Part shown: in pieces, positions 13,441 to 58,703 of the stretch
Layout: each line of letters opens with the position of its first letter
Position numbering within the stretch: position 1 is the first letter of the stretch
Assembly: GCA_009773355.1 (NCBI GenBank)
Contig: WRPG01000004.1
Coordinates: 1-64,000 of the forward strand
Reading direction: 5' to 3'
Length of the DNA stretch: 64,000 nucleotides
Source of the DNA: Limisphaerales bacterium
GTDB taxonomy: Bacteria; Verrucomicrobiota; Verrucomicrobiia; Limisphaerales; SXTU01
Made by a program: the position numbers and the translations under genes
Notes under the pieces: model-generated
Databases searched by the model: none
The model's input: only the letters and a program-made list of their open reading frames with translations
Told to the model about the DNA's origin: nothing

Positions 13441-13505
13441 GGAGCGCAGGTGTCCAACCTGCGTGTCAGACAGGGTTGAACGCGCAGGTTGGACACCTGC
13501 GCTCC
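13441..13505. repeat. GGAGCGC-edged perfect palindrome, copy 1
   Basis: Arms 13441-13463 and 13483-13505 are perfect 23-base reverse complements; each contains the hairpin GCAGGTGTCCAACCTGC. The 19-base core is unique. It lies between the convergent oppA and PepSY-like genes and may act as a two-way terminator. Copies with the same arms and other cores are at 16983 and 36319. Confidence 0.95.
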
Positions 13506-14627: not shown

Positions 14628-17075
14628 TCACTCCTTCGGCACCTGATTCAGCGTGTAGTGCAGCGTGTCATTCCGCAGCGCGTCGCCGCGATGGTTCTTC
14701 AATCCCAGTGCTCGCAGCATGATGACGTGGCGCGGCTTCTGGCCCTCCAGCGTCAGGCGCACGGTGAGCTTGTCGGCGGCGACCTCGGCCTTCAGCACGC
14801 GCACGGGCGGGCCGGGGATTTTCTCGTCGCGGTCCTTCTCGGGCGCGTTGTGTTTGCCGTCGTAGGCGTAGGTGTATTGCGTCGCGTCCCAGTTCTCGGC
14901 GTCGCCGGCGAGCTTGGCGTCCACCGGCTGCGTGAAGGCCACCTCGAAGCCGTTCGTGCGCGCGGCCACGGTCTTGAACTCGAAGGGCACGCGCCCGGAG
15001 AACTTCACGCGGTCCAGCGAGTGCGGCTGCGGCGCGATGCTCGTCCAGTGCCCGAAGCGCAGCCCGCCCACGTAGAGCCGGCTGTCCGGCCCGTAGGCGA
15101 GCCGGTTCACGCCGGACGCGAAGCCCTTCACGAACGGCAGCACCGCGCCCTGCCACTGGCCGTTCACCTTCTCCAGCGCCACGCGCACGACGCTGGCGTT
15201 CTGAAACTCGCCCACGAGCATCTGCCCGCCGAACGGCCCGAAGCGGAAGTCGCCGACTGTCGCAAGGCCGCTCGCCGACCGCACCCACGCGTAGGGAAAC
15301 CACACGGCGGGCGGCGTGAAGTTCGGGTCGCCGTCGAAGTGCGCGGGCGGCGACGGCGACGAGCTGGGGTGGCCGTAGAAGTTCGTGAGTTGAAGATGGT
15401 TCAGCTTGTTCGCGGCAATCCAGTGGCCCTGGTTGTCGGTCATGAAGAGGTCGCCGCGGAATTCGCCGAAGCCATTCGGCACGCGCAGGCCGGAGCAGAA
15501 CGGGTCGGTGCGCCACACGTCGGTGAAGGGGACTTCGCCGGTGTTGCTCGGGTGCGGGGAAATTTTCAGACACCAGCCCATCGCGGGGACTTCGCGCATC
15601 GCGCGGTGGCCGGTGATGAGCGCGCCGAGAATGCCGCTCTCGTCCACGAGCGGCCCGGTGGCGAAGGAGTGGTAGTTGCCGGTGTAGCCCCACGCGTCGC
15701 TCACGCACTCTAAGACATCCGCCACGCCGTCGCCGTCCGCGTCGCGCAGGCGGGTCAGCTCGCACTTCTGCATCACGTAAATCGCGCCGTCCACCACGCG
15801 CAGGCCGCCCGGCTCGTTGAGGCCGCGCGCGAAGCGCCGCCACCGCGCGGCCTTCGCGTCGCCGGTCGCGCCCTCGACGATGAACACCTCGCCCTGATAC
15901 GTCGCGATGGCGAGGCTGCCGTCCGGCAGGAAGTCCATTCCCGCGACGGTGAGCTTGAGCTCCTTCGGCACGGGGAAATGCTCGACGGTGTAGAACTCAT
16001 CGCCGCCCGGTTTGTCGGTGAAGTTCGGGTCGGGGAGGAAAACGGGCGCGGCGTTCGTGGCTTTCGCGGGCGCGGGCAACGGCTTCACCGGCCCGGCAAG
16101 CTGCTTCGCCAGCGCGCTCGCGGCGTTCAAGTCCGCGACGACGGCAGAAGCAACTTCAAACGTCTGCGGCTGCTCGTTCGGCGGAACGGCGACGCGCAGC
16201 GTGACCTTGCGACCGGCGACAACATTCGTGACGACTGCAGACCAAGGCCCCTTGCCGTCGCGCTCGGAGTTGAGGATTTCCGTGACCGGCGTGCTGGTGA
16301 CGAGCGGGAGGAAGTTGCCGCCCGGCAGGCCGCGCAGCACCGCGACGAGCACGCCCGCCGGCGTGCGGATGCCTTGCGCGCCGGAGACGCCGAAGATGTT
16401 GACCGGGTCGCCGGGTTCGTCGTGCGCGTTGAGCCGGACGCGGCGAGAAAGCGGGGCGACTTCAAAGCGCCGGATGATGACGTTGTGCCCGCCGACTTGC
16501 TCCAGTCGGGGCGATTCAATGACGGCGACGGGCGCATCGCCGGGCGGATACAGCTCATACACGAACGAGGTCGCGCCGCCGAAGGTGCTGTGGCCCTTGA
16601 AGCGCGTGAGCGGCCCGGTGGCGTCCGCCGCGACGGCATCGAACACCCACGGGCTGCGCGCGAGGCTGCCCCAGAGGCGCGTGCCGGTGAAGTCGCACAC
16701 GAAGCGCGTGGACGTGCCGTTGTAGGGCGGGCCGTAAAGGTTGAGCGAGTCGCCTTGCCAAACCGTGTGCGTGCGGAGGAGCTGCGCGTCGAAGGCGAGG
16801 TGAAGGTTCGTTCCGAACGATACCACGATGCTGCGGCTGGACTGCGCCATCGGCGCGCGACGGAACGGGAGGTCGGCGGGGTCGTGGAAAGCGGGAACGG
16901 GGGCGGGGGCTTTCGGTGAGGGCTTGGGCGTCTGCGCGAAGGTGGAACTGGCCAGCAGCAAGGCGGCGAGCGCCGTTGCGCAGGAGCGCAGGTGTCCAAC
17001 CTGCGTCAGTGCGGGAGTCAGTTTCGCGCAGGTTGGACACCTGCGCTCCACGCTGCGGGTGAATGGGAGTCGCAC
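14628..17075 (-). CDS. Secreted beta-propeller protein related to PQQ-type sugar dehydrogenases
   Basis: About 815 residues from GTG 17075 (VRLPFTRS...). The N-terminal half (residues about 60-400) is a beta-rich region I cannot name with certainty (possibly DUF6797); the C-terminal half is a six-bladed propeller with DFLPDGSLAIATYQGEVFIV, RLRDADGDGVADV, SGLRVPNGFGEFRGDLFMTD and LYVGGLRFG, as in verrucomicrobial/planctomycete membrane-bound dehydrogenase-like proteins. No CxxCH haem motif. Export: the hydrophobic stretch CATALAALLLASSTFAQ is a normal signal core, but a 67-base palindromic element lies between the basic n-region VRLPFTRS and this core, adding about 23 residues in frame. Without the element the signal peptide would be ordinary. 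Confidence 0.75.
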   Translation of the reverse strand: MRLPFTRSVERRCPTCAKLTPALTQVGHLRSCATALAALLLASSTFAQTPKPSPKAPAPVPAFHDPADLPFRRAPMAQSSRSIVVSFGTNLHLAFDAQLLRTHTVWQGDSLNLYGPPYNGTSTRFVCDFTGTRLWGSLARSPWVFDAVAADATGPLTRFKGHSTFGGATSFVYELYPPGDAPVAVIESPRLEQVGGHNVIIRRFEVAPLSRRVRLNAHDEPGDPVNIFGVSGAQGIRTPAGVLVAVLRGLPGGNFLPLVTSTPVTEILNSERDGKGPWSAVVTNVVAGRKVTLRVAVPPNEQPQTFEVASAVVADLNAASALAKQLAGPVKPLPAPAKATNAAPVFLPDPNFTDKPGGDEFYTVEHFPVPKELKLTVAGMDFLPDGSLAIATYQGEVFIVEGATGDAKAARWRRFARGLNEPGGLRVVDGAIYVMQKCELTRLRDADGDGVADVLECVSDAWGYTGNYHSFATGPLVDESGILGALITGHRAMREVPAMGWCLKISPHPSNTGEVPFTDVWRTDPFCSGLRVPNGFGEFRGDLFMTDNQGHWIAANKLNHLQLTNFYGHPSSSPSPPAHFDGDPNFTPPAVWFPYAWVRSASGLATVGDFRFGPFGGQMLVGEFQNASVVRVALEKVNGQWQGAVLPFVKGFASGVNRLAYGPDSRLYVGGLRFGHWTSIAPQPHSLDRVKFSGRVPFEFKTVAARTNGFEVAFTQPVDAKLAGDAENWDATQYTYAYDGKHNAPEKDRDEKIPGPPVRVLKAEVAADKLTVRLTLEGQKPRHVIMLRALGLKNHRGDALRNDTLHYTLNQVPKE
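16983..17049. repeat. GGAGCGC-edged perfect palindrome, copy 2, inside a signal peptide
   Basis: Arms 16983-17005 and 17027-17049 are identical in sequence to copies 1 and 3 (23-base perfect reverse complements); the 21-base core is different. On the minus strand it is translated in frame as VERRCPTCAKLTPALTQVGH followed by LRS between the two halves of a signal peptide. Confidence 0.92.
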
Positions 17076-17169: not shown

Positions 17170-17224
17170 GGTGTCCACGCTTTAGCGGTGTCGGTGCGCT
17201 GGAACACCCTGAAGGGTGGACACC
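17170..17224. repeat. GGTGTCCAC-edged palindromic element with covarying arms
   Basis: Left arm 17170-17191 (GGTGTCCACGCTTTAGCGGT plus GT) and right arm 17203-17224, whose reverse complement is GGTGTCCACCCTTCAGGGTG plus TT. Outer edges agree; the inner hairpin words differ (CGCT/AGCG against CACCCT/AGGGTG) while pairing is kept within each arm. It is in the gap between divergent genes at 17075 and 17287. Confidence 0.75.
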
Positions 17225-27440: not shown

Positions 27441-27562
27441 CTGAACCGGAGCGCGGGACTCCGGCCCGCTGCAGCCACCTCAACCCGGGAGCACTTCGGA
27501 AACTCGCACGCTGCACTGTGCAAGTTGCCGCTGCGGCCCGGAGGGCCGCGCTCCGGTTCAGG
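27441..27562. repeat. GGAGCGC-edged palindromic element with covarying arms
   Basis: Outer edges CTGAACCGGAGCGCGG (from 27441) and CCGCGCTCCGGTTCAG (to 27561) are inverted. The inner hairpins are GCGGGACTCCGGCCCGC in the left arm and, in the same orientation, GCGGCCCTCCGGGCCGC in the right arm: sequence changed, pairing kept. The right arm overlaps the TGA (27558-27560) of the minus-strand permease gene. Confidence 0.85.
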
Positions 27563-34284: not shown

Positions 34285-36318
34285 ATGGCCGGCCTGATTC
34301 CACCGCAGAAGCTCGAGGAAATCCGCGCGGCCAGCGACATCGTGGATGTCATCGGTGGCTACCTCGGTCCGCTCAAGCGCGCGGGCGCAAACTTCGTCAC
34401 GCTCTGCCCGTTCCACCGCGAGAAGTCGCCGAGCTTCAACGTCAATCCGGGCCGCCAGATCTTCCATTGCTTCGGCTGCCACAAGGGCGGCGACGTGTTC
34501 ACCTTCGTCAAGGAATACGAGAACCTCTCCTTCATTGAGGCCGTCCGCCGCCTCGCCGAGCGCGCGCGCATCGTGCTGGAGTTCGAGGACAACCCCCACG
34601 CGAAGCAGGCGCGCGGCGAGAAGGAGTCGCTCCTCCACCTCCACGAGGAAATCTGCAAGCGCTGGCAGACCGCGCTGGCCAACGATGCCGCCGGCCAGAT
34701 CGCCCGCGATTACCTCGCCAAGCGCGGCGTCTCCGCCGAGGCCGTGAAACTCTTCCGCCTCGGCTACGCGCCGGATCTGTGGGACGACACGGTGAACTGG
34801 GCGAAGTCCAAAAACTTCGACCTCAAGCTCGTGGAGCGCGGCGGCCTCGTCATCCGCAAGGAAGGGGCCGACCATTTCTACGACCGCTTCCGGGGCCGGC
34901 TCATGTTCCCGATCTGCGACGAGCAGGGCCGCGTCATCGGCTTCAGCGGGCGCGTGCTCGCGGGCGACGAGAAGACCGCGAAGTATGTCAACTCGCCGGA
35001 GACGCCCATCTTCACCAAGGGCCGCGTCATCTTCGGCCTCGACAAGTCCAAGCGCGCCGTCGCCGACAAGGACTGCGCCATCATCTGCGAGGGCCAACTC
35101 GATCTCATCGCCTGCTTCATGGCCGACGTGAAGAACGTCGTCGCGCCGCAGGGCACCGCGCTCACCGCCGACCACTGCCGCATTCTCAAGCGCTACGCGG
35201 ACGAGGTCGTCCTCTGCTTCGACTCCGACAACGCCGGGCAAAACGCCGCCGTCCGCTCGCTGGACATTTTGCTCGCGAGCGGCCTCGCCATCCGCGTTGC
35301 CACCGTGCCCGCGCCGCACGACCCGGACAGCTACATCAAGGCGAACGGCGGCCCGGCCTTCGAGCAGCTCATCGAGCGCGCGGAAAACTTCTTCGACTAC
35401 TACCTCAACCGGCTGTGTGTGCAGAACGACCTCGGCGCGGACAAGGGGCGTCTCGCCGTCCTGCACGCGATGGGCGAGGCCACGCAGAAGACCGGCAACG
35501 CGGTGCTGATTGACACCTACGCGCAGAAGACCGCCGCGCGGCTCGGCGTGGCGCCGGAGGCCGCACGCGCGGAGTTCAAGAAGATCGCCGCCGCCAAGCC
35601 CAAGTTCGTCCTGCGCACCGACGCGCAGCCCGCAGCCCGTGCCGGTGGTTTGCAACCGCCGTCCACCGCTCCCGGCACGCCCAAGCGCGGCGATTCCAAA
35701 TCGCCGGCACCGGACCCCGACAGTCCGCCCGACGATTACTACGACTCCCAGCCCGCCGCACCCAGCGAAGGCCATTCCGGCGACGTGCTGCCCGGCACCG
35801 ACCCGGCACCGGAGCCGGAAGCCCCGCCGTCGAAGCAGGAGTTCTGGCTGCTACAGGCGCTCTTCCACAGCGACGATCAGATGGAGTGGCTGGCGAACAC
35901 GCTGCGGCTCGAATGGCTCACCCACTTGGGCGTGCGGCAGATCGTCGCCCATCGGCTCGCGGGTTACGCGAACCAGTCGTGGCACGGCCCCGCGCAGTTG
36001 CTCGGTGAGTTGCCCGACGACGCTGCCCGCTCGCTCTGCACGCAGGCGATGGCCGAGAGTGACCGGATGCTGGCGACCCCGCAGCCCCGCGAAGGTGAAG
36101 ATGCCGCGCGCGCGACGCGCATCCAGGCCGAGCGCGAGAAGGCCCGTCTCGCCATGCTCCGCGACGTGCTCACGCGGCTGCGCAACGACTTCATTGACCG
36201 CCGCATGTCGGAGCTGAACCGCGAGCTGAACGCGCCGCAGCTCGAAGACTCCGAGCAAAACTCCCTGCTCCGCGAGCGCGAGCAGTTGCGCCAGCAGAAG
36301 AAGCAGCCGCTGGCGTGA
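34285..36318 (+). CDS. dnaG: DNA primase
   Basis: 677 residues from ATG 34285 (MAGLIPPQKLEEIRAASDIV). Zinc-binding CHC2 domain (CPFHREKSPSF ... HCFGCHKGGDVF), catalytic N-terminal fold, TOPRIM with EGQLDLIACF and LCFDSDNAGQNAA, then a C-terminal helicase-binding region. Synthesises RNA primers at the replication fork. Residues about 452-476, between TOPRIM core and C-terminal domain, are translated from a palindromic element (35639-35710); the flanking stretch is disordered-looking (PDSPPDDYYDSQPA). The start is chosen from the family; the repeat element just upstream replaces a normal leader. Confidence 0.96.
   Translation: MAGLIPPQKLEEIRAASDIVDVIGGYLGPLKRAGANFVTLCPFHREKSPSFNVNPGRQIFHCFGCHKGGDVFTFVKEYENLSFIEAVRRLAERARIVLEFEDNPHAKQARGEKESLLHLHEEICKRWQTALANDAAGQIARDYLAKRGVSAEAVKLFRLGYAPDLWDDTVNWAKSKNFDLKLVERGGLVIRKEGADHFYDRFRGRLMFPICDEQGRVIGFSGRVLAGDEKTAKYVNSPETPIFTKGRVIFGLDKSKRAVADKDCAIICEGQLDLIACFMADVKNVVAPQGTALTADHCRILKRYADEVVLCFDSDNAGQNAAVRSLDILLASGLAIRVATVPAPHDPDSYIKANGGPAFEQLIERAENFFDYYLNRLCVQNDLGADKGRLAVLHAMGEATQKTGNAVLIDTYAQKTAARLGVAPEAARAEFKKIAAAKPKFVLRTDAQPAARAGGLQPPSTAPGTPKRGDSKSPAPDPDSPPDDYYDSQPAAPSEGHSGDVLPGTDPAPEPEAPPSKQEFWLLQALFHSDDQMEWLANTLRLEWLTHLGVRQIVAHRLAGYANQSWHGPAQLLGELPDDAARSLCTQAMAESDRMLATPQPREGEDAARATRIQAEREKARLAMLRDVLTRLRNDFIDRRMSELNRELNAPQLEDSEQNSLLREREQLRQQKKQPLA
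35639..35710. repeat. GTGCCGG-edged palindromic element inside dnaG, arms covarying
   Basis: Left arm 35639-35661 and right arm 35688-35710. Outer edges GTGCCGG and CCGGCAC as in the intergenic copy at 27300. Inner hairpins differ: GGTGGTTTGCAACCGCC (one G-T pair) on the left, GGCGATTCCAAATCGCC on the right. Read in frame as AGGLQPPSTAPGTPKRGDSK. Confidence 0.85.
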
Positions 36319-36383
36319 GGAGCGCAGGTGTCCAACCTGCGGTCAGGTTCTCCTGCATCGCGCAGGTTGGACACCTGCGCTCC
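36319..36383. repeat. GGAGCGC-edged perfect palindrome, copy 3
   Basis: Arms 36319-36341 and 36361-36383, identical to copies 1 and 2, core 19 bases. It begins at the base after the dnaG TGA and ends three bases before the stop of the convergent transporter gene, so it is the entire intergenic region and could terminate both transcripts. Confidence 0.95.
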
Positions 36384-52142: not shown

Positions 52143-55100
52143 ATGTCGAAGCCGTCGCCCGCCAACTTCATCCGCCTCCGCGGCGTGCGGCACAACAACC
52201 TCAAGGGCTTCGACCTGGACCTGCCGCTGGGGAAGCTCATCGTCATCACGGGCTTGAGCGGCTCGGGGAAGTCCTCGCTGGCGTTCGACACGCTTTTCGC
52301 CGAGGGCCAGCGGCGCTACATCGAGACCTTCTCGCCGTATGCGCGGCAGTTCTTCGACCGCATGGACAAGCCGGCGGTGGACAGCATCGAAGGCATCCCG
52401 CCGGCCATCGCCATCGAGCAGCGCAACGCCGTGCGCACCACGCGCAGCACCGTCGGCACGATGACGGAAATCTGCGACCACCTGAAGGTGCTCTGGCCGC
52501 ACCTCGCCACGCTGCATTGCCGCAAGTGCGGGAAGCCCGTGGAGAAGGAGCCGCCGCAGAAGGTGTGGGAAGTGGTAGCAGCCGACGTGAGGAGGCTCCA
52601 TTCAAATGCGGAGCGCGGAACGCAGAATGCGGAATGTCTGGTGACGTTCGACCTCGCGTTGTCGGAGAAGCTCTCGCTGAAGGAATCGCTCTCCCTCCTC
52701 GCCAAGCAAGGCTACCAGCGCCTCCTCGTCAGCGGCGAAGTCGTCCGCCTCGAAGACGCAGCCCCCAAACTACGGAGCGCCGAGCATTGCTCGGCCGATG
52801 CAAGCGAACCCGCCCAAGCCGAGCAATGCTCGGCGCTCCGCCAAGTCCCAGCCGCCCTTACTGTCCTCCAAGACCGCCTCCGCCTCACCCCCGCCATCCG
52901 CTCCCGTTTCATCGAAGCCTGCGAACAAGCCTACCACTTCGGCAAAGGCCGCCTCGCCGTTCACCTACTTCCCAGCGCCTCCCCCCCAGACCCCAGACCC
53001 CAGACGCTAGACCCAATTCCCCATTCCCCATCCCCCATTCCCTTTTCAAATCGCTTCCACTGCGCCCCCTGCGATCTCGACTACCGCGAGCCGTCCCCCG
53101 CGCTCTTCAGCTTCAACCACCCCGTCGGCGCGTGCCCCGCGTGCAAGGGCTTCGGACGCGTCATCGGCATTGACTACGAGTTGGCGATTCCCGACCGCTC
53201 GCTCTCGCTGGCTGCCGGCGCGGTGAAGCCTTGGCGCACCGGCACCGGCGCGGAGTCGTTGGCCGACTTGGCGAAGTTCTGCAAGAAGCTCGGCGTGCCG
53301 ATGGACGTGCCCTTCCGCGACTTGAGCGAGGCGCACCAACGCTGGGTCATCGAAGGCGACCCCGGCTACGACAGCAACGACCCCGCGAACGCCTGGCCGA
53401 AGAAGTGGTATGGCGTGAAGGGCTACTTCCGCTGGCTGGAGAGCAAGAGCTACAAGATGCACGTCCGCGTGCTGCTCTCGCGCTACCGCAGCTACACGCG
53501 TTGCCCGAGCTGCGAGGGGCGGCGGTTTCAGCCGGAAGCGTTGCTCTACCAAGTCCCCGTAGGTGACGACGTAAGGAGTCTCCATTCAAACGCGGAACGC
53601 GGAACGCAGAGCGCGGAACAGAAGTCAGAGACTCCTCACGTCGTCTCCTACCCGCGACTCACCCTCGCCGACTTCTACGCCCTCCCTGTCACCCGCGCCC
53701 TCGAAGTCATCGAATCGCTCGCCGCGCGTTTCCCCCAATCGGCAATCGGCAATCGGCAATCGCCCATTCATCACGCCTTGGAGGAGGTTTCCTCCCGCCT
53801 CCGCTACCTCGCCGAAGTTGGCCTCGGCTACCTCACGCTGGACCGTGCCACGCGCACGCTCTCCGGCGGCGAGACCGAGCGCGTGAACCTCACCACCTGT
53901 CTCGGCACGCGCCTCGTCAACACGCTCTACGTCCTCGACGAGCCGAGCGTCGGCCTGCACCCGCGCGACACCGCGCGCCTCGTCGTCATCCTTCAACGCC
54001 TCCGCGACCTCGGTAACACCGTCATCGTCGTCGAGCACGAAGCCGCCGTCATGCGCGCCGCCGACCAGATTGTGGACCTCGGCCCCGGCCACGGGGAGAC
54101 GGGCGGCGAACTGGTCTTTCAAGGCACGCTGACCGAATTGCTGAAGCACCCCCTCTCGCTCACGGGGCAATACTTGAGCGGGCGGATGCAGGTGGAGACG
54201 CGAGCGCGACGGCCCATTCATGGCGAAGCAGGTGAGAAAGTGGGAAAGCGAGAAAGTGAGAGGGGCTCCACCGCTCACTCTCCCACTTTCTCACCTGCTC
54301 ACTTTCTCACGCTGACCGGCGCTTCCGCTCACAACCTCAAAAACCTAACCATCTCCATCCCGCTGGGCCGTTTCGTCTGCCTCACGGGCGTGAGCGGCTC
54401 CGGCAAGTCCACCCTCGTCCGCGACTGCCTCCTGCCCGCGATCCAAGCCAAACTTCAAGCCGCCGCCAAAGCCACCGACCACCCAGAAGCCACCGGCGAA
54501 GCCGACGACTCCCCCACCGAAGCCCCATCTCCTATCACCCATTCCCCATCCCCTCTTTCCCTCACCGGAGCGGAGCGACTGTCCCGCGCCATCCTCGTTG
54601 ACCAAACCTCCCTCGGCAAAACTCCGCGCTCCAACCCCGCCGTCTACATCGGCGCCTTTGACCATCTCCGCGACCTCTTCGCCGCCACGGAACTCGCCAA
54701 GCAGCGCGGCCTGAACAGCAGCGCCTTCAGCTTCAACTCCGCTGTCGGCCAGTGCGACCGCTGCCGGGGCGCGGGCTTCGAGAAAATTGAAATGCAGTTC
54801 CTCAGCGATGTGTTCATCAAGTGCCCGGCGTGCGAGGGAAGGCGGTATCGTGAGCACGTTTTGGAAGTGAAGATCGAGGCGGTGGGGAAAGTAATTAGTG
54901 AGGAAGTGATTAGTAAGAAGTCCCCGAGCCGCGCCCGCTCCAAGTCCCCACTAAGCACTCAATCACTAATCACTAATTACTCTTGGTCCATCGCCGACCT
55001 CCTCGCCGCCAGCGTGGACGAATCCCTCGCCTTCCTCGCCGCCCTGCCCGACTCGAAGCCCGCCGCCCGCGCCGCCGCTGCGCTGCGTGTCTTGCAGGAA

Positions 55101-55619
55101 GTCGGCCTCGGCTACCTGCGCCTTGGCCAGCCCATCAACACCTTGAGCGGCGGCGAAAGCCAGCGCCTCAAGCTCGCCGCGCACCTCGCCGAATCCGTAG
55201 GAGACGACGTGAGGAGTCTCACTTCAAAAACCACCGTGGACGACATCCGCGCTTGGGCCAAGGAGCGGAAAGCTCCCCCCCAGACGCCAGACGCCAGACC
55301 CCATCCCCTCCCGGAAAGTCAGAGACTCCTCACGTCGTCACCTACGCTATTCGTCTTCGACGAGCCGACGACTGGCCTGCACTTCGACGACGTGCGCGTG
55401 CTCGTCGCCGTCTTCCAGCGGCTTGTGGACGCGGGCCACACCGTCCTCGTCATCGAGCACAACCTCGATGTCATCCGCGCCGCCGACTGGCTCATTGACC
55501 TCGGCCCCGAGGCCGGCGACGCCGGCGGCGAACTCGTCATCGCCGGCACGCCGGAGCAAGTCGCCGCCTGCGAGCGGAGTCACACGGGAGCAGCGTTGCG
55601 AATGTCCAATGCCCAATAA
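52143..55619 (+). CDS. uvrA: UvrA paralogue 1 with many in-frame repeat insertions
   Basis: 1158 residues, about 200 longer than usual. NBD1: Walker A TGLSGSGKSS, TRSTVGTMTEICDHL, zinc motifs (CAPCDLDYREPSPALFSFNH, CPACKGFG, CPSCEGRRF), signature TLSGGETERVNL, Walker B YVLDEPSVGLH. NBD2: [65 protein letters not shown]. All catalytic motifs are intact. UvrA recognises DNA damage and loads UvrB. Nine stretches are translations of repeat elements: 52575, 52774, 52984, 53559, 53736, 54228, 54523, 54891 and 55197. They fall in surface or linker regions, one of them between the NBD2 signature and Walker B. uvrC is encoded 2.4 kb upstream, uvrA2 follows; uvrB is absent. Confidence 0.93.
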   Translation: MSKPSPANFIRLRGVRHNNLKGFDLDLPLGKLIVITGLSGSGKSSLAFDTLFAEGQRRYIETFSPYARQFFDRMDKPAVDSIEGIPPAIAIEQRNAVRTTRSTVGTMTEICDHLKVLWPHLATLHCRKCGKPVEKEPPQKVWEVVAADVRRLHSNAERGTQNAECLVTFDLALSEKLSLKESLSLLAKQGYQRLLVSGEVVRLEDAAPKLRSAEHCSADASEPAQAEQCSALRQVPAALTVLQDRLRLTPAIRSRFIEACEQAYHFGKGRLAVHLLPSASPPDPRPQTLDPIPHSPSPIPFSNRFHCAPCDLDYREPSPALFSFNHPVGACPACKGFGRVIGIDYELAIPDRSLSLAAGAVKPWRTGTGAESLADLAKFCKKLGVPMDVPFRDLSEAHQRWVIEGDPGYDSNDPANAWPKKWYGVKGYFRWLESKSYKMHVRVLLSRYRSYTRCPSCEGRRFQPEALLYQVPVGDDVRSLHSNAERGTQSAEQKSETPHVVSYPRLTLADFYALPVTRALEVIESLAARFPQSAIGNRQSPIHHALEEVSSRLRYLAEVGLGYLTLDRATRTLSGGETERVNLTTCLGTRLVNTLYVLDEPSVGLHPRDTARLVVILQRLRDLGNTVIVVEHEAAVMRAADQIVDLGPGHGETGGELVFQGTLTELLKHPLSLTGQYLSGRMQVETRARRPIHGEAGEKVGKRESERGSTAHSPTFSPAHFLTLTGASAHNLKNLTISIPLGRFVCLTGVSGSGKSTLVRDCLLPAIQAKLQAAAKATDHPEATGEADDSPTEAPSPITHSPSPLSLTGAERLSRAILVDQTSLGKTPRSNPAVYIGAFDHLRDLFAATELAKQRGLNSSAFSFNSAVGQCDRCRGAGFEKIEMQFLSDVFIKCPACEGRRYREHVLEVKIEAVGKVISEEVISKKSPSRARSKSPLSTQSLITNYSWSIADLLAASVDESLAFLAALPDSKPAARAAAALRVLQEVGLGYLRLGQPINTLSGGESQRLKLAAHLAESVGDDVRSLTSKTTVDDIRAWAKERKAPPQTPDARPHPLPESQRLLTSSPTLFVFDEPTTGLHFDDVRVLVAVFQRLVDAGHTVLVIEHNLDVIRAADWLIDLGPEAGDAGGELVIAGTPEQVAACERSHTGAALRMSNAQ
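52575..52637. repeat. Half element plus 7-mer array in uvrA1
   Basis: GTAGCAGCCGACGTGAGGAG then GCTC (52575-52598) matches the left arm of the palindrome at 56874, followed by GCGGAGC, GCGGAAC, GCAGAAT, GCGGAAT (52608-52635). No right arm is present. Read as [20 protein letters not shown]. Confidence 0.88.
52774..52839. repeat. GGAGCGC-edged perfect palindrome in uvrA1
   Basis: Arms 52774-52795 and 52818-52839, perfect 22-base reverse complements with the hairpin GCCGAGCATTGCTCGGC; core 22 bases. Read in frame as [20 protein letters not shown]. One arm alone recurs in uvrA2 at 57794. Confidence 0.95.
52984..53046. repeat. Nine consecutive 7-mers in uvrA1
   Basis: CCCCAGA three times, CGCTAGA, CCCAATT, CCCCATT, CCCCATC, CCCCATT, CCCTTTT: 63 bases = 21 codons, read PPDPRPQTLDPIPHSPSPIP. 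Similar words recur at 54523 and 55279. Confidence 0.93.
53559..53651. repeat. GACGTGAGGAG-type palindrome with 7-mer core in uvrA1
   Basis: Arms 53559-53582 and 53628-53651 match at 22 of 24 positions. The core contains CGCGGAA, CGCGGAA, CGCAGAG, CGCGGAA. Read in frame between VPVGDDVRSLHSNAERG and TPHVVSYPRLTLADF. Confidence 0.92.
53736..53763. repeat. CAATCGG 7-mer array in uvrA1
   Basis: CAATCGG three times and CAATCGC, read QSAIGNRQSP. The same array stands in the PSD1 gene at 20213. Confidence 0.9.
54228..54310. repeat. Inverted 8-mer element in uvrA1
   Basis: Left TGAGAAAG, TGGGAAAG, CGAGAAAG, TGAGAG; right CTCACTCT, CCCACTTT, CTCACCTG, CTCACTTT, CTCAC. An 8-nt period rather than 7. 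It stands just before the NBD2 start (LTLTGASAHNLKN), the same place as the related element at 57537 in uvrA2. Confidence 0.9.
54523..54558. repeat. 7-mer array in uvrA1
   Basis: CCCATCT, CCTATCA, CCCATTC, CCCATCC, CCTCTTT from 54524, read APSPITHSPSPLSL, in the region between NBD2 Walker A and its ATP-lid. Confidence 0.8.
54891..54980. repeat. Inverted 7-mer element (CTAATCA words) in uvrA1
   Basis: Left GTAATTAGTGAGGAAGTGAT (54891 on), right AATCACTAATCACTAATTAC (54961-54980). Read VISEEVISKKSPSRARSKSP then LSTQSLITNYS. Same words as the PSD1 element at 21652. Confidence 0.9.
55197..55345. repeat. GACGTGAGGAG-type palindrome between NBD2 signature and Walker B of uvrA1
   Basis: Arms 55197-55220 and 55322-55345 match at nearly all 24 positions. 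The core is 101 bases and includes CAGACGC, CAGACGC, CAGACCC. Read VGDDVRSLTSKTTVDDIRAW ... SQRLLTSSP, about 50 residues where UvrA proteins normally have five to ten. Confidence 0.93.
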
Positions 55620-55644: not shown

Positions 55645-55742
55645 GGAGCGCGGCCTTCAGGCCGCTTCGACGTGCGAAAACCCTTATCATCGCCATCGCC
55701 CGTTGGGCTGCGGACGTTGAAGCGGCGTGAACGCCGCGCTCC
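55645..55742. repeat. GGAGCGC-edged palindrome with compensating arm changes
   Basis: Left arm 55645-55672 with hairpin GCGGCCTTCAGGCCGC; right arm 55715-55742, in the same orientation GCGGCGTTCACGCCGC. The two inner words differ at paired positions, so each hairpin stays perfect. Core 42 bases. In the gap between uvrA1 and uvrA2. Confidence 0.93.
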
Positions 55743-55756
55743 ACCCGCCGCGCGCC

Positions 55757-55791
55757 AACCTTGAACCTGGAACCCGAAACCTTGAACGAGC
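55757..55791. repeat. 7-mer array containing the start of uvrA2
   Basis: AACCTTG, AACCTGG, AACCCGA, AACCTTG, AACGAGC. The TTG codons at 55761 and 55782 are the only plausible uvrA2 starts. Confidence 0.88.
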
Positions 55792-58703
55792 CAAACGAGA
55801 TTTCCATCCACGGCGCGCGGCATCACAACCTGAAGAACCTCTCGCTCGCCATCCCGCGCGGGAAGTTCGTGGTCGTCACGGGCGTCAGCGGCAGCGGCAA
55901 GAGCACGCTCGCCTTCGACCTCATCTTCGCCGAGGGCCAGCGGCGCTTCCTCGATGCGATGAACGCCTACGCGCGGCAGTTCGTGGAGCAGATGGCGCGA
56001 CCCGACGTGGACCTCATCACCGGCATCCCGCCCACCGTCAGCATCGAGCAGCGGAACTCGCGCGGCGGCGGCAAGTCCACCGTCGCCACGGTCACGGAGA
56101 TTCACCACTTCCTGCGCCTGCTCTTCGCCAAGCTCGGCACGCAGTTCTGCCCGCAGTGCAACGTCCCCGTCACCGGCCAGACGCGTGACGCGCTGGCGGC
56201 GAACTTGCAGAACGAACTCAAACAGCGCGGCGACCTGTTGCTGCTCGCGCCCGTGGTGAAGAATCGCAAAGGCTTCCACAGCGAAGTCGCCACCTGGGCC
56301 GCGAAGAACGGCTACGCCGAAATCCGCGCGGACGGGAGGATGTTCCGCACGGACGAACACTTCCGCCTCGACCGCTTCAAGGAGCACGATGTGGAAATCG
56401 TCGTGGGCGTGCTGGAGAAGCGGCGGAGCGCGGGCGTCCCCGCCCGCAGCGCGTCCGAACGCAAGCAGGGCTTACGCATCTCCGAAGTGTCCCCTGCGAG
56501 CGAAGCCGCTGCGGGCGGGGACGCCCGCGCTCCACAGCAGCTCGTGGACATCGCCCTCAAACTCGGCCACGGCACACTCTACGCGCTGGACAATCACCGC
56601 CAGCTCACCGTCCACAGCACCGAGCGCGCGTGCCCGACGTGCCACGCCAGCTTCGCCGCGCTCGACCCGAAGAACTTCAGCTACAACTCCGCGCAGGGCT
56701 GGTGCCCCCAATGCCGCGGCTTCGGCGAACTCTTTTACATCCCCGACGTGGAGCGCGGCGCGAACGCGGACTCGGTCGAGGAGAGCTGGTGGAGCTGGGC
56801 GCAGGAGCGGGAGGTGTGCCCGGAGTGCCACGGTGCGCGGTTGAACCCCGTGGCGCGTGCGGTGCGTCTCGTGGTAGCAGCCGACGTGAGGAGGCTCACT
56901 TCGACTTCCGCCCTCGCTGGCCGAAAGAAAAAGTCAGAGCCTCCTCACGTCGGCTGCTACGCGGACGGGGTGACGATTGACTTCTTCTCCACCGCGAACG
57001 TGGACGCCGCGCTCGCTTACTTCTCCGCGCTGAAGCTCGCCGGGCGCGATGCCGACATCGCGCGCGACATCCTGCCGGAGATTCGCGAGCGGCTGAAGTT
57101 CCTGAGCGAAGTGGGCCTCGGCTACCTCCAGCTTGGCCGTGCTGCGCCGACGCTGTCCGGCGGCGAGGCGCAGCGGATGCGCCTGGCCGCCCAACTCGGC
57201 TCGAACCTCAGCGGCGTCCTCTATGTCCTCGACGAGCCGACCATCGGCCTGCACGCGCGCGACAACGCCCTGCTGCTTGGCGCGCTCAAGCAGCTCCAGT
57301 CGCGCGGCAACTCGCTGCTCGTGGTCGAGCACGACGAGGACACGATGCGCCATGCCGACTGGGTGATTGACCTGGGCCCCGGCGCGGGCGTGAAGGGCGG
57401 CGAAGTCATTGCCAGCGGGACGTTGAAGGAGTTGCTGCGGCACAAGGAGAGCATCACCGGCCAGCAACTCCGCGCGCAGGAGGGGAAAAAGTATCCGAGC
57501 CGGGGCGAACGGCGAGCAGTGGCAGGCCGAAACGGAGCAGGTGAGAAAGTGGGAAGGCGGGAAAGTGAGAAGCAGGCCGGGCGCGGGCGAGCCACAGGCT
57601 CACTTTCTCACTCTCACACTTTCCCACCCGCTCACTGTCTCACTCTCGCCAACGCTTCCACCCACAACCTCAAAGACCTCACCGTCCGCTTCCCGCTGAA
57701 CCGGTTCGTGGTCATCACCGGCGTGAGCGGCAGCGGCAAGAGCACGTTGATTCGCGAGTGCTTGTTGCCTGCCGTGCAAACCGCGCTCGCCAAGCCGAGC
57801 AATGCTCGGCGCTCCGCCCCAGACGCCAGACGCCAGACCTCATCCGCTCCCCGTCTCGCCGGCCACGAGTCCCTCTCCGCTGTTTACGAGGTTGACCAGT
57901 CGCCCATCGGCCGCACGCCGCGCAGCACGCCCGCGACTTACGTGGGCTTTTTCGATGACATCCGCGCGCTGTTCGCGCAGGTGCCGGAGGCGCGGATGCG
58001 CGGCTACGGGCCGGGGCGCTTCAGCTTCAACAGCCCGGCGGGCCGCTGTCCCGGCTGCGACGGCGCAGGCGAGGTGAAATTAGAAATGAACTTTCTCCCG
58101 CCCGCCTACGTGCGCTGTGAGGTCTGCAACGGCCTGCGCTTCAATCCCGAGACGCTTGATGTGCTCTTCAACGGCAAGAACATCGCGCAGGTGCTCGACC
58201 TCAGCGTGGCCGAGGCGCTGGAGTTCTTCGCCGCGCAGAAGCGCATCCGCCGTCCGCTGGAGGCTCTCCGCGACACCGGCCTCGACTACCTCAAGCTCGG
58301 CCAGACCAGCCCGACATTGAGCGGCGGCGAGGCGCAGCGCGTGAAGCTCGTGACGCACTTGCTCGGCGGGTTGAAGGATGCGTCCGCTGACAAGCTGCCT
58401 GACCCGCGATTTCAAACCCGAAACGCCAAGCTCTTCATCCTCGAAGAACCAACCATCGGCCTGCACATGAGTGACGTGCAGCGGCTGGTGGCTGTGCTGC
58501 AGCGCCTCGTGGACGCCGGCCACAGCGTCATCGTCATCGAGCACAACCTTGACCTCATCGCCGAGGCGGACTGGGTGATTGACCTCGGCCCGGAGGCGGG
58601 CGACGCGGGCGGAGGGCTGGTGGCCGAGGGGACTCCGGAGGAAGTGGCGCGTTGCGAGCGGTCGCACACGGGCCGGTTTCTCAGCGGGCTGGTCGGACGC
58701 TGA
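55761..58703 (+). CDS. UvrA paralogue 2
   Basis: 980 residues from TTG 55761 (or TTG 55782); no ATG precedes the conserved [19 protein letters not shown]1: [30 protein letters not shown], zinc motifs [28 protein letters not shown] and [37 protein letters not shown]2: [53 protein letters not shown] and [11 protein letters not shown], where the Walker B Asp is Glu. Diverged from UvrA1 and probably a UvrA2-like protein used in damage tolerance or drug resistance. It contains repeat insertions at 56425, 56874, 57537 and 57794. uvrA1 lies 141 bases upstream on the same strand. Confidence 0.9.
56425..56533. repeat. GGAGCGC-edged perfect palindrome in uvrA2
   Basis: Arms 56425-56451 and 56507-56533, perfect 27-base reverse complements containing GCGGGCGTCCCCGCCCGC; core 55 bases. 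Read in frame as [20 protein letters not shown] ... [12 protein letters not shown]. Confidence 0.95.
56874..56960. repeat. GACGTGAGGAG-type perfect palindrome in uvrA2
   Basis: Arms 56874-56897 and 56937-56960, perfect 24-base reverse complements (GTAGCAGCCGACGTGAGGAG plus GCTC). Core 39 bases. Read [20 protein letters not shown] ... [10 protein letters not shown] after the zinc motif. Confidence 0.95.
57537..57648. repeat. Inverted 8-mer element in uvrA2
   Basis: Left TGAGAAAG, TGGGAAGG, CGGGAAAG, TGAGAAGC; right CTCACTTT, CTCACTCT, CACACTTT, CCCACCCG, CTCACTGT, CTCACTCT. Placed directly before the NBD2 start, as in uvrA1. Confidence 0.9.
57794..57842. repeat. Single arm plus 7-mers in uvrA2
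   Basis: 57794-57815 equals the right arm of the uvrA1 palindrome at 52818 (GCCGAGCAATGCTCGGCGCT plus CC). It is followed by CAGACGC, CAGACGC, CAGACC. Read [20 protein letters not shown] after NBD2 Walker A. Confidence 0.9.

Follow-up and report, generated by a model that had tools for sequence, protein, structure and literature searches.

The first 64,000 nucleotides of contig WRPG01000004.1 from a Limisphaerales bacterium (assembly GCA_009773355.1), referred to here as the window, contain two tandem uvrA-like open reading frames (ORFs) at 52143-55619 and 55761-58703, and between these ORFs, at 55645-55742, lies an inverted, head-to-head pair of hairpins of the repetitive extragenic palindromic (REP) type. 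Each hairpin consists of the tag GGAG, a 6-bp stem and the loop TTCA. The left arm (55645-55665, plus strand) has the structure GGAG-C-GCGGCC-TTCA-GGCCGC, the right arm (55722-55742, read on the minus strand) has the structure GGAG-C-GCGGCG-TTCA-CGCCGC, and a spacer at 55666-55721 separates the two. The arms are unlike at one base pair, C-G in the left and G-C in the right, and this pair is altered on both sides of the stem. The two stem sequences bear out the original prediction in this respect, which was that changes are paired within each arm because the small hairpin, rather than the large palindrome formed by both arms, is the unit that is made or selected. One element alone proves little, however, because one in three random changes on the opposite side of a stem would re-form the base pair.

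Four further places that had been cited as similar cases are indeed inverted REP-like pairs with unequal arms, although three of them carry small blemishes. The pair at 1543-1608, which belongs to the GTAGTCGC family and has the tag GTAG, combines a left stem AACC-TTCA-GGTT with a right stem GGGC-TTCA-GCCT. The pair at 17171-17223 belongs to the G[TA]GTCC family (tag GTGTCC; stems ACGC and ACCC) and has a one-base bulge in its left stem, the pair at 27448-27554 belongs to a GGAG family with the loop TCC (GCGGGAC and GCGGCCC) and has one A-G mismatch in its left stem, and the pair at 35639-35710 belongs to the GTGCC family (GGTGGTT-TGC-AACCGCC and GGCGATT-TGG-AATCGCC) and has one T-G wobble in its left stem.

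These pairs are members of families that are spread through the genome, of which about 1.95 Mb out of 6.16 Mb was examined directly, together with pattern searches across the genus. The pattern GGAGCGCGG-TTYA, which describes the family of the element at 55645-55742, matched 70 arms in this genome and the pattern GTAGTCGC-TTYA matched 55, while control patterns matched 0 or 1. Further families of inverted pairs are GGAG with the loop TCC, GTAG-TCGACAT, G[TA]GTCC and GTGCC. Both the GGAG and the GTAG arms of this genome have the 5' tag followed by a hairpin that characterizes a REP, and the pairs consist of two inverted REPs with the tags outermost and a family-specific distance between them. 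Judged by their sequences, the tag-stem-loop pairs have the anatomy of REP elements and of REP dimers, which are also described as REP doublets forming hairpins (REPINs) and bacterial interspersed mosaic elements (BIMEs). The GTAG that marks the REP superfamily of that name is absent from the arms at 55645-55742, which carry GGAG, though it is present in those at 1543-1608. The GTAGTCGC family is nearly restricted to the genus, occurring in 10 of 11 genus genomes and in 1 of 29 others. A looser pattern, GTAG-TGCY, gave mostly chance matches and was kept out of the statistics.

Separating pairing within an arm from pairing between the arms requires that the positions under study play no part in the collection of the data. 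The patterns used to collect arms fixed only the tag, the outer stem and the loop, and because they left the inner stem unconstrained the covariation test is not circular; the same patterns reversed gave 0 or 1 match per genome. For the GGAG family, 134 arms from three genomes were compared with sets in which the 3' letters were shuffled. The two innermost positions formed Watson-Crick pairs in 130 and 129 of the arms (132/134 and 131/134 when G-T is counted), while the shuffles averaged 106 and 59 and never exceeded 115 and 77, and the innermost pair was seen in all four Watson-Crick forms, C-G, G-C, A-T and T-A. In the GTAGTCGC family (n=165 arms) the two variable columns were paired in 164 and 164 arms, with shuffled maxima of 137 and 104. 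Inner positions are thus paired within the arm in 98-99% of cases.

Pairing between the arms behaves quite differently. In the GGAG family the arms are complementary to each other at 64% of inner positions, and same-type pairs are no commoner than under random assortment (31 of 48 elements are heterotypic, against 33.2 expected); in the GTAG family the figure is 51%, and same-type pairs are far rarer than random (57 of 60 GTAGTCGC elements are heterotypic, against 39.6 expected, a count of 57 being reached in none of 20,000 shuffles). Where the two arms of a GGAG element differ at a column, both sides were changed and both stems left intact in 33 of 37 cases. In the GTGCC family, too, compensation lies within the arm and assortment is random (heterotypic in 14 of 22 elements, 14.2 expected), and within-arm covariation is likewise present in the G[TA]GTCC family and in the GGAG family with the loop TCC. 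In the G[TA]GTCC family the outer pairs are matched while the third pair alternates in 10 of 11 elements, the shuffle test on whole types not being significant. Same-type pairs predominate in the GTAG-TCGACAT family. The observed substitutions therefore support a reading in terms of single hairpins: pairing within the arm explains them, and arm-to-arm complementarity, the genome-wide outcome that would have told against the original prediction, does not.

The single-hairpin enzyme that had been predicted on these grounds has a strong candidate in the REP-associated tyrosine transposase (RAYT, or TnpA-REP), which, by analogy with known systems, is most likely the enzyme that recognizes the hairpins, and whose gene in a sister species has REP pairs of the same family on either side. 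Four RAYT genes have REPs on both sides, two in this genome and two in the sister genome G010. The G010 gene C18 lies between GGAGCGCGG-TTCA pairs, the family of the element at 55645-55742 (L174, 1379-1483 and 2194-2302), and the four arms around it have four different inner stem sequences. The G010 gene C91 lies between two identical GTAGTCGC heterodimers (L167, 1320-1386 and 1956-2022). In this genome, the gene C27:165k (L039, 4903-5786) lies between GGAG-tagged GGAGCGCAGG/GGAGCGCCGG pairs, and C27:210k lies between GTAG-TCGACAT pairs. Three of the four REP-flanked proteins score above the NCBIfam cut-off for REP transposases (NF047646) and C27:210k scores below it; the Pfam domain of the RAYTs is Y1_Tnp, and the sole PDB match of the C18 protein is TnpA-REP 4er8. 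The HxH motif and the tyrosine aligned with Y115 of the Escherichia coli protein are invariant in all six RAYTs compared, which rules out the loss of the catalytic tyrosine that had been considered for C27:210k. The closest relatives of the C18 protein are C138 of genome G005 (51% identity) and C27:165k (44%), and because both also adjoin GGAG-tagged repeats, albeit with other stems, the sequences suggest a group of RAYTs that read GGAG.

Several other genes of this kind were noted. The C27:165k RAYT forms one 599-residue frame read through with an upstream proline-racemase-like gene. C63:33k (L132, 1372-1965) is a RAYT-like gene without close REP hairpins, and on C114 a short IS200-like transposase gene is immediately preceded by inverted CCTGGGGC hairpins at L044 8121 and 8271. 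On L142, a contig titled Akkermansia muciniphila (a label that may be wrong), GTAG-TCGACAT repeats again flank a 90% identical RAYT, and a GGAGCGCGG pair is also present.

The element at 55645-55742 is very probably a REP dimer, or REPIN, composed of two stem sub-types, in which each tagged hairpin is the recognition unit of a RAYT and is read singly. On the analogy of E. coli TnpA-REP, the RAYT would bind and cut single-stranded REP DNA hairpin by hairpin, and the unit recognized would be the hairpin with its 5' tag (GGAG at 55645-55742, GTAG at 1543). In other species TnpA-REP has been shown to depend on the tag and to recognize the single-stranded REP, whereas the inverted copy is not recognized (PMC8266576). 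Probably the enzyme reads one arm at a time, which would account for the compensation within the arm: a substitution in one strand of a stem would be retained only when its complement follows, and no constraint would make the two arms match. Selection on the stems would then act through the RAYT.

Three observations weigh against this reading. Arms that share a type by descent are not independent, which inflates the count of events that the shuffle figures imply; no RAYT gene was found between REPs of the 55645-55742 family or of the GTAGTCGC family in this genome, which is 95% complete; and in all families tested, heterodimers included, the long hairpin that joins both arms has the predicted minimum energy of the DNA folds or comes within half a kcal/mol of it. 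This last result, which in the GGAG family amounts to -34.1 kcal/mol for the long hairpin and -15.2 kcal/mol for two small ones, would be expected if the long hairpin were the functional unit, with the REPIN copied and recognized whole and the differences between arms being tolerated mismatches. The inverted orientation, the tags and outer stems common to both arms, and the near-constant length of the elements within a family (about 67 bp for GGAG with the loop TCC, 71-76 bp for GTAG-TCGACAT, 54 or 66 bp for GTAG-TTCA) fit such a unit. Copying of the doublet as a unit should also leave shared spacers, but clear cases are limited to two of the six families and to the pairs on either side of the G010 C91 gene, which have a spacer in common; in the other four families the spacers are mostly unrelated in spite of their set lengths, different elements of the 55645-55742 family have no spacer sequence in common, and beyond the hairpins the spacers of partner arms pair little or no better than those of non-partner arms. 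Given also that arm-to-arm matching stays at or below random assortment while pairing within the arm is nearly complete, the long hairpin is improbable as the functional unit. The original prediction is thus supported, within limits: within-arm compensation indicates that the small hairpin is kept as a unit, but since the tag and outer stem are common to both arms and the long fold is predicted to have the lowest energy, the large palindrome may still be relevant, and the sequences by themselves are no proof that the single hairpin is all that counts.

A further rival holds that the hairpins are selected as RNA, either as terminators or as stabilizers of messenger RNA. G-T wobble pairs do occur in the stems, and both the 55645 and the 1543 element are either intergenic or placed where a gene ends, but some elements lie within reading frames, Rfam has no family that matches in the window, and neither the 5' tag nor the linkage to RAYT genes would be explained; selection as RNA is accordingly very improbable.

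The favouring of unequal arms in the GTAG family is a separate matter from the recognition of single hairpins by a RAYT. With unequal arms the predicted advantage of the long hairpin over two small ones shrinks, in the GTAG family from 19.7 to 5.2 kcal/mol and in the GGAG family from 26.9 to 18.9 kcal/mol. This modelled weakening is consistent with, though no proof of, the published proposal that heterodimers avoid being cleaved as cruciforms. Through such weakening unequal arms may be tolerated, and in the GTAG family favoured. It is also conceivable, although rather unlikely, that the GTAGTCGC family is under active enforcement of unequal arms, either because the RAYT uses one hairpin type per end, the two unlike ends then resembling the unequal ends of IS200/IS605, or because homodimers are purged as long cruciforms, while single GGAG arms turn over independently. 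A founder effect, in which an unequal-armed ancestor was copied whole, is compatible with RAYT recognition of single hairpins, concerns only the arm difference, and is a serious contender that falls somewhat short of being probable. The same combination of AACC with GGC is dominant in several species of the genus, as such an origin would entail, but heterotypy occurs again with other stems among GTAG-TGCY pairs and in the G[TA]GTCC family (10 of 11 elements, not significant on whole types, although the third stem column alternates), and the random assortment of the GGAG family is left unexplained.

Much of this has precedents. The GTAG-tagged REP heterodimers described earlier (Di Nocera et al. 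2013, PMC3733652; GTAG-24 of Pseudomonas aeruginosa, y-z BIMEs of E. coli) are likewise short hairpins with a 5' tetranucleotide, arranged as head-to-head dimers 20-100 bp apart, and heterodimers of different stems as well as sub-families with alternative complementary stem residues have been published (PMC3733652, PMC2817692). Selection of complementary mutations in REPs has been published too, so the principle is known, and this genome shows it unusually clearly. The REPINs of Pseudomonas fluorescens (Bertels and Rainey 2011, PMC3116915) are similarly RAYT-linked inverted REP doublets with set spacing; here, by comparison, the compensation lies inside each arm. The RAYTs agree with those already described (Nunvar et al. 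2010, PMC2817692; PMC8266576; 4er8) in the Y1_Tnp domain, the match to NF047646, the HxH motif with tyrosine and the location of the gene between REPs, but in this genus the related RAYTs that share 44-51% identity with the C18 protein have GGAG-tagged families beside them, not GTAG-tagged ones. The GGAG tag falls outside the published degeneracy (GYAG, GYRG, GTRG, GTMG, GTGG), and, unlike in the systems of PMC3733652, obligately heterotypic, randomly assorting and mostly homotypic families occur together in one genome. A literature search of incomplete coverage found neither GGAG-tagged families each with its own RAYT nor opposite pairing rules side by side. The preference of many REP families for heterodimers has been said to have 'no obvious explanation' (PMC3733652), and a second question is which unit spreads, the lone hairpin or the doublet; since the genus has families with opposite rules together, several of them with an identified RAYT, both questions become open to direct testing.

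The surroundings of the elements add some detail. In G010, G004 and G002 the junction between the two uvrA-like genes lacks the element and is shorter (about 80 bp), but the flanking intergenic DNA differs, so that a clean empty site was rejected and the borders of the element cannot be fixed. The corresponding site for 1543-1608 was uninformative, since in most relatives homology ends at the left edge of the element. No plasmid match was found, and spread by plasmid was thus rejected. Three pairs of the GGAG family with the loop TCC (13441-13505, 16983-17049 and 36319-36383) have GCAGGTG in both arms. A GGAG pair with the stem GCCGAGC-ATT-GCTCGGC (52774-52839) lies within the first uvrA-like frame, and in-frame REP units or dimers are present in both frames (also at 52575, 53559-53651, 55197-55345, 56425-56533 and 56874-56960), where they translate to peptides such as VAADVRRL and VGDDVRSL. 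Another member of the Verrucomicrobia, Opitutus terrae, is rich in GTAG-tagged REPs and is reported to have REP insertions in both uvrA genes (PMC3733652). A run of N inside one REP pair (L057, 2486-2613) probably reflects a gap that assembly or masking left at the hairpin, and arrays of 7-bp units (TGCGTGT, ATTGCCG, TTCAGTA), some of them inverted, are scattered through the genome (L055 3356, L051 11833, L096 4408 and others).
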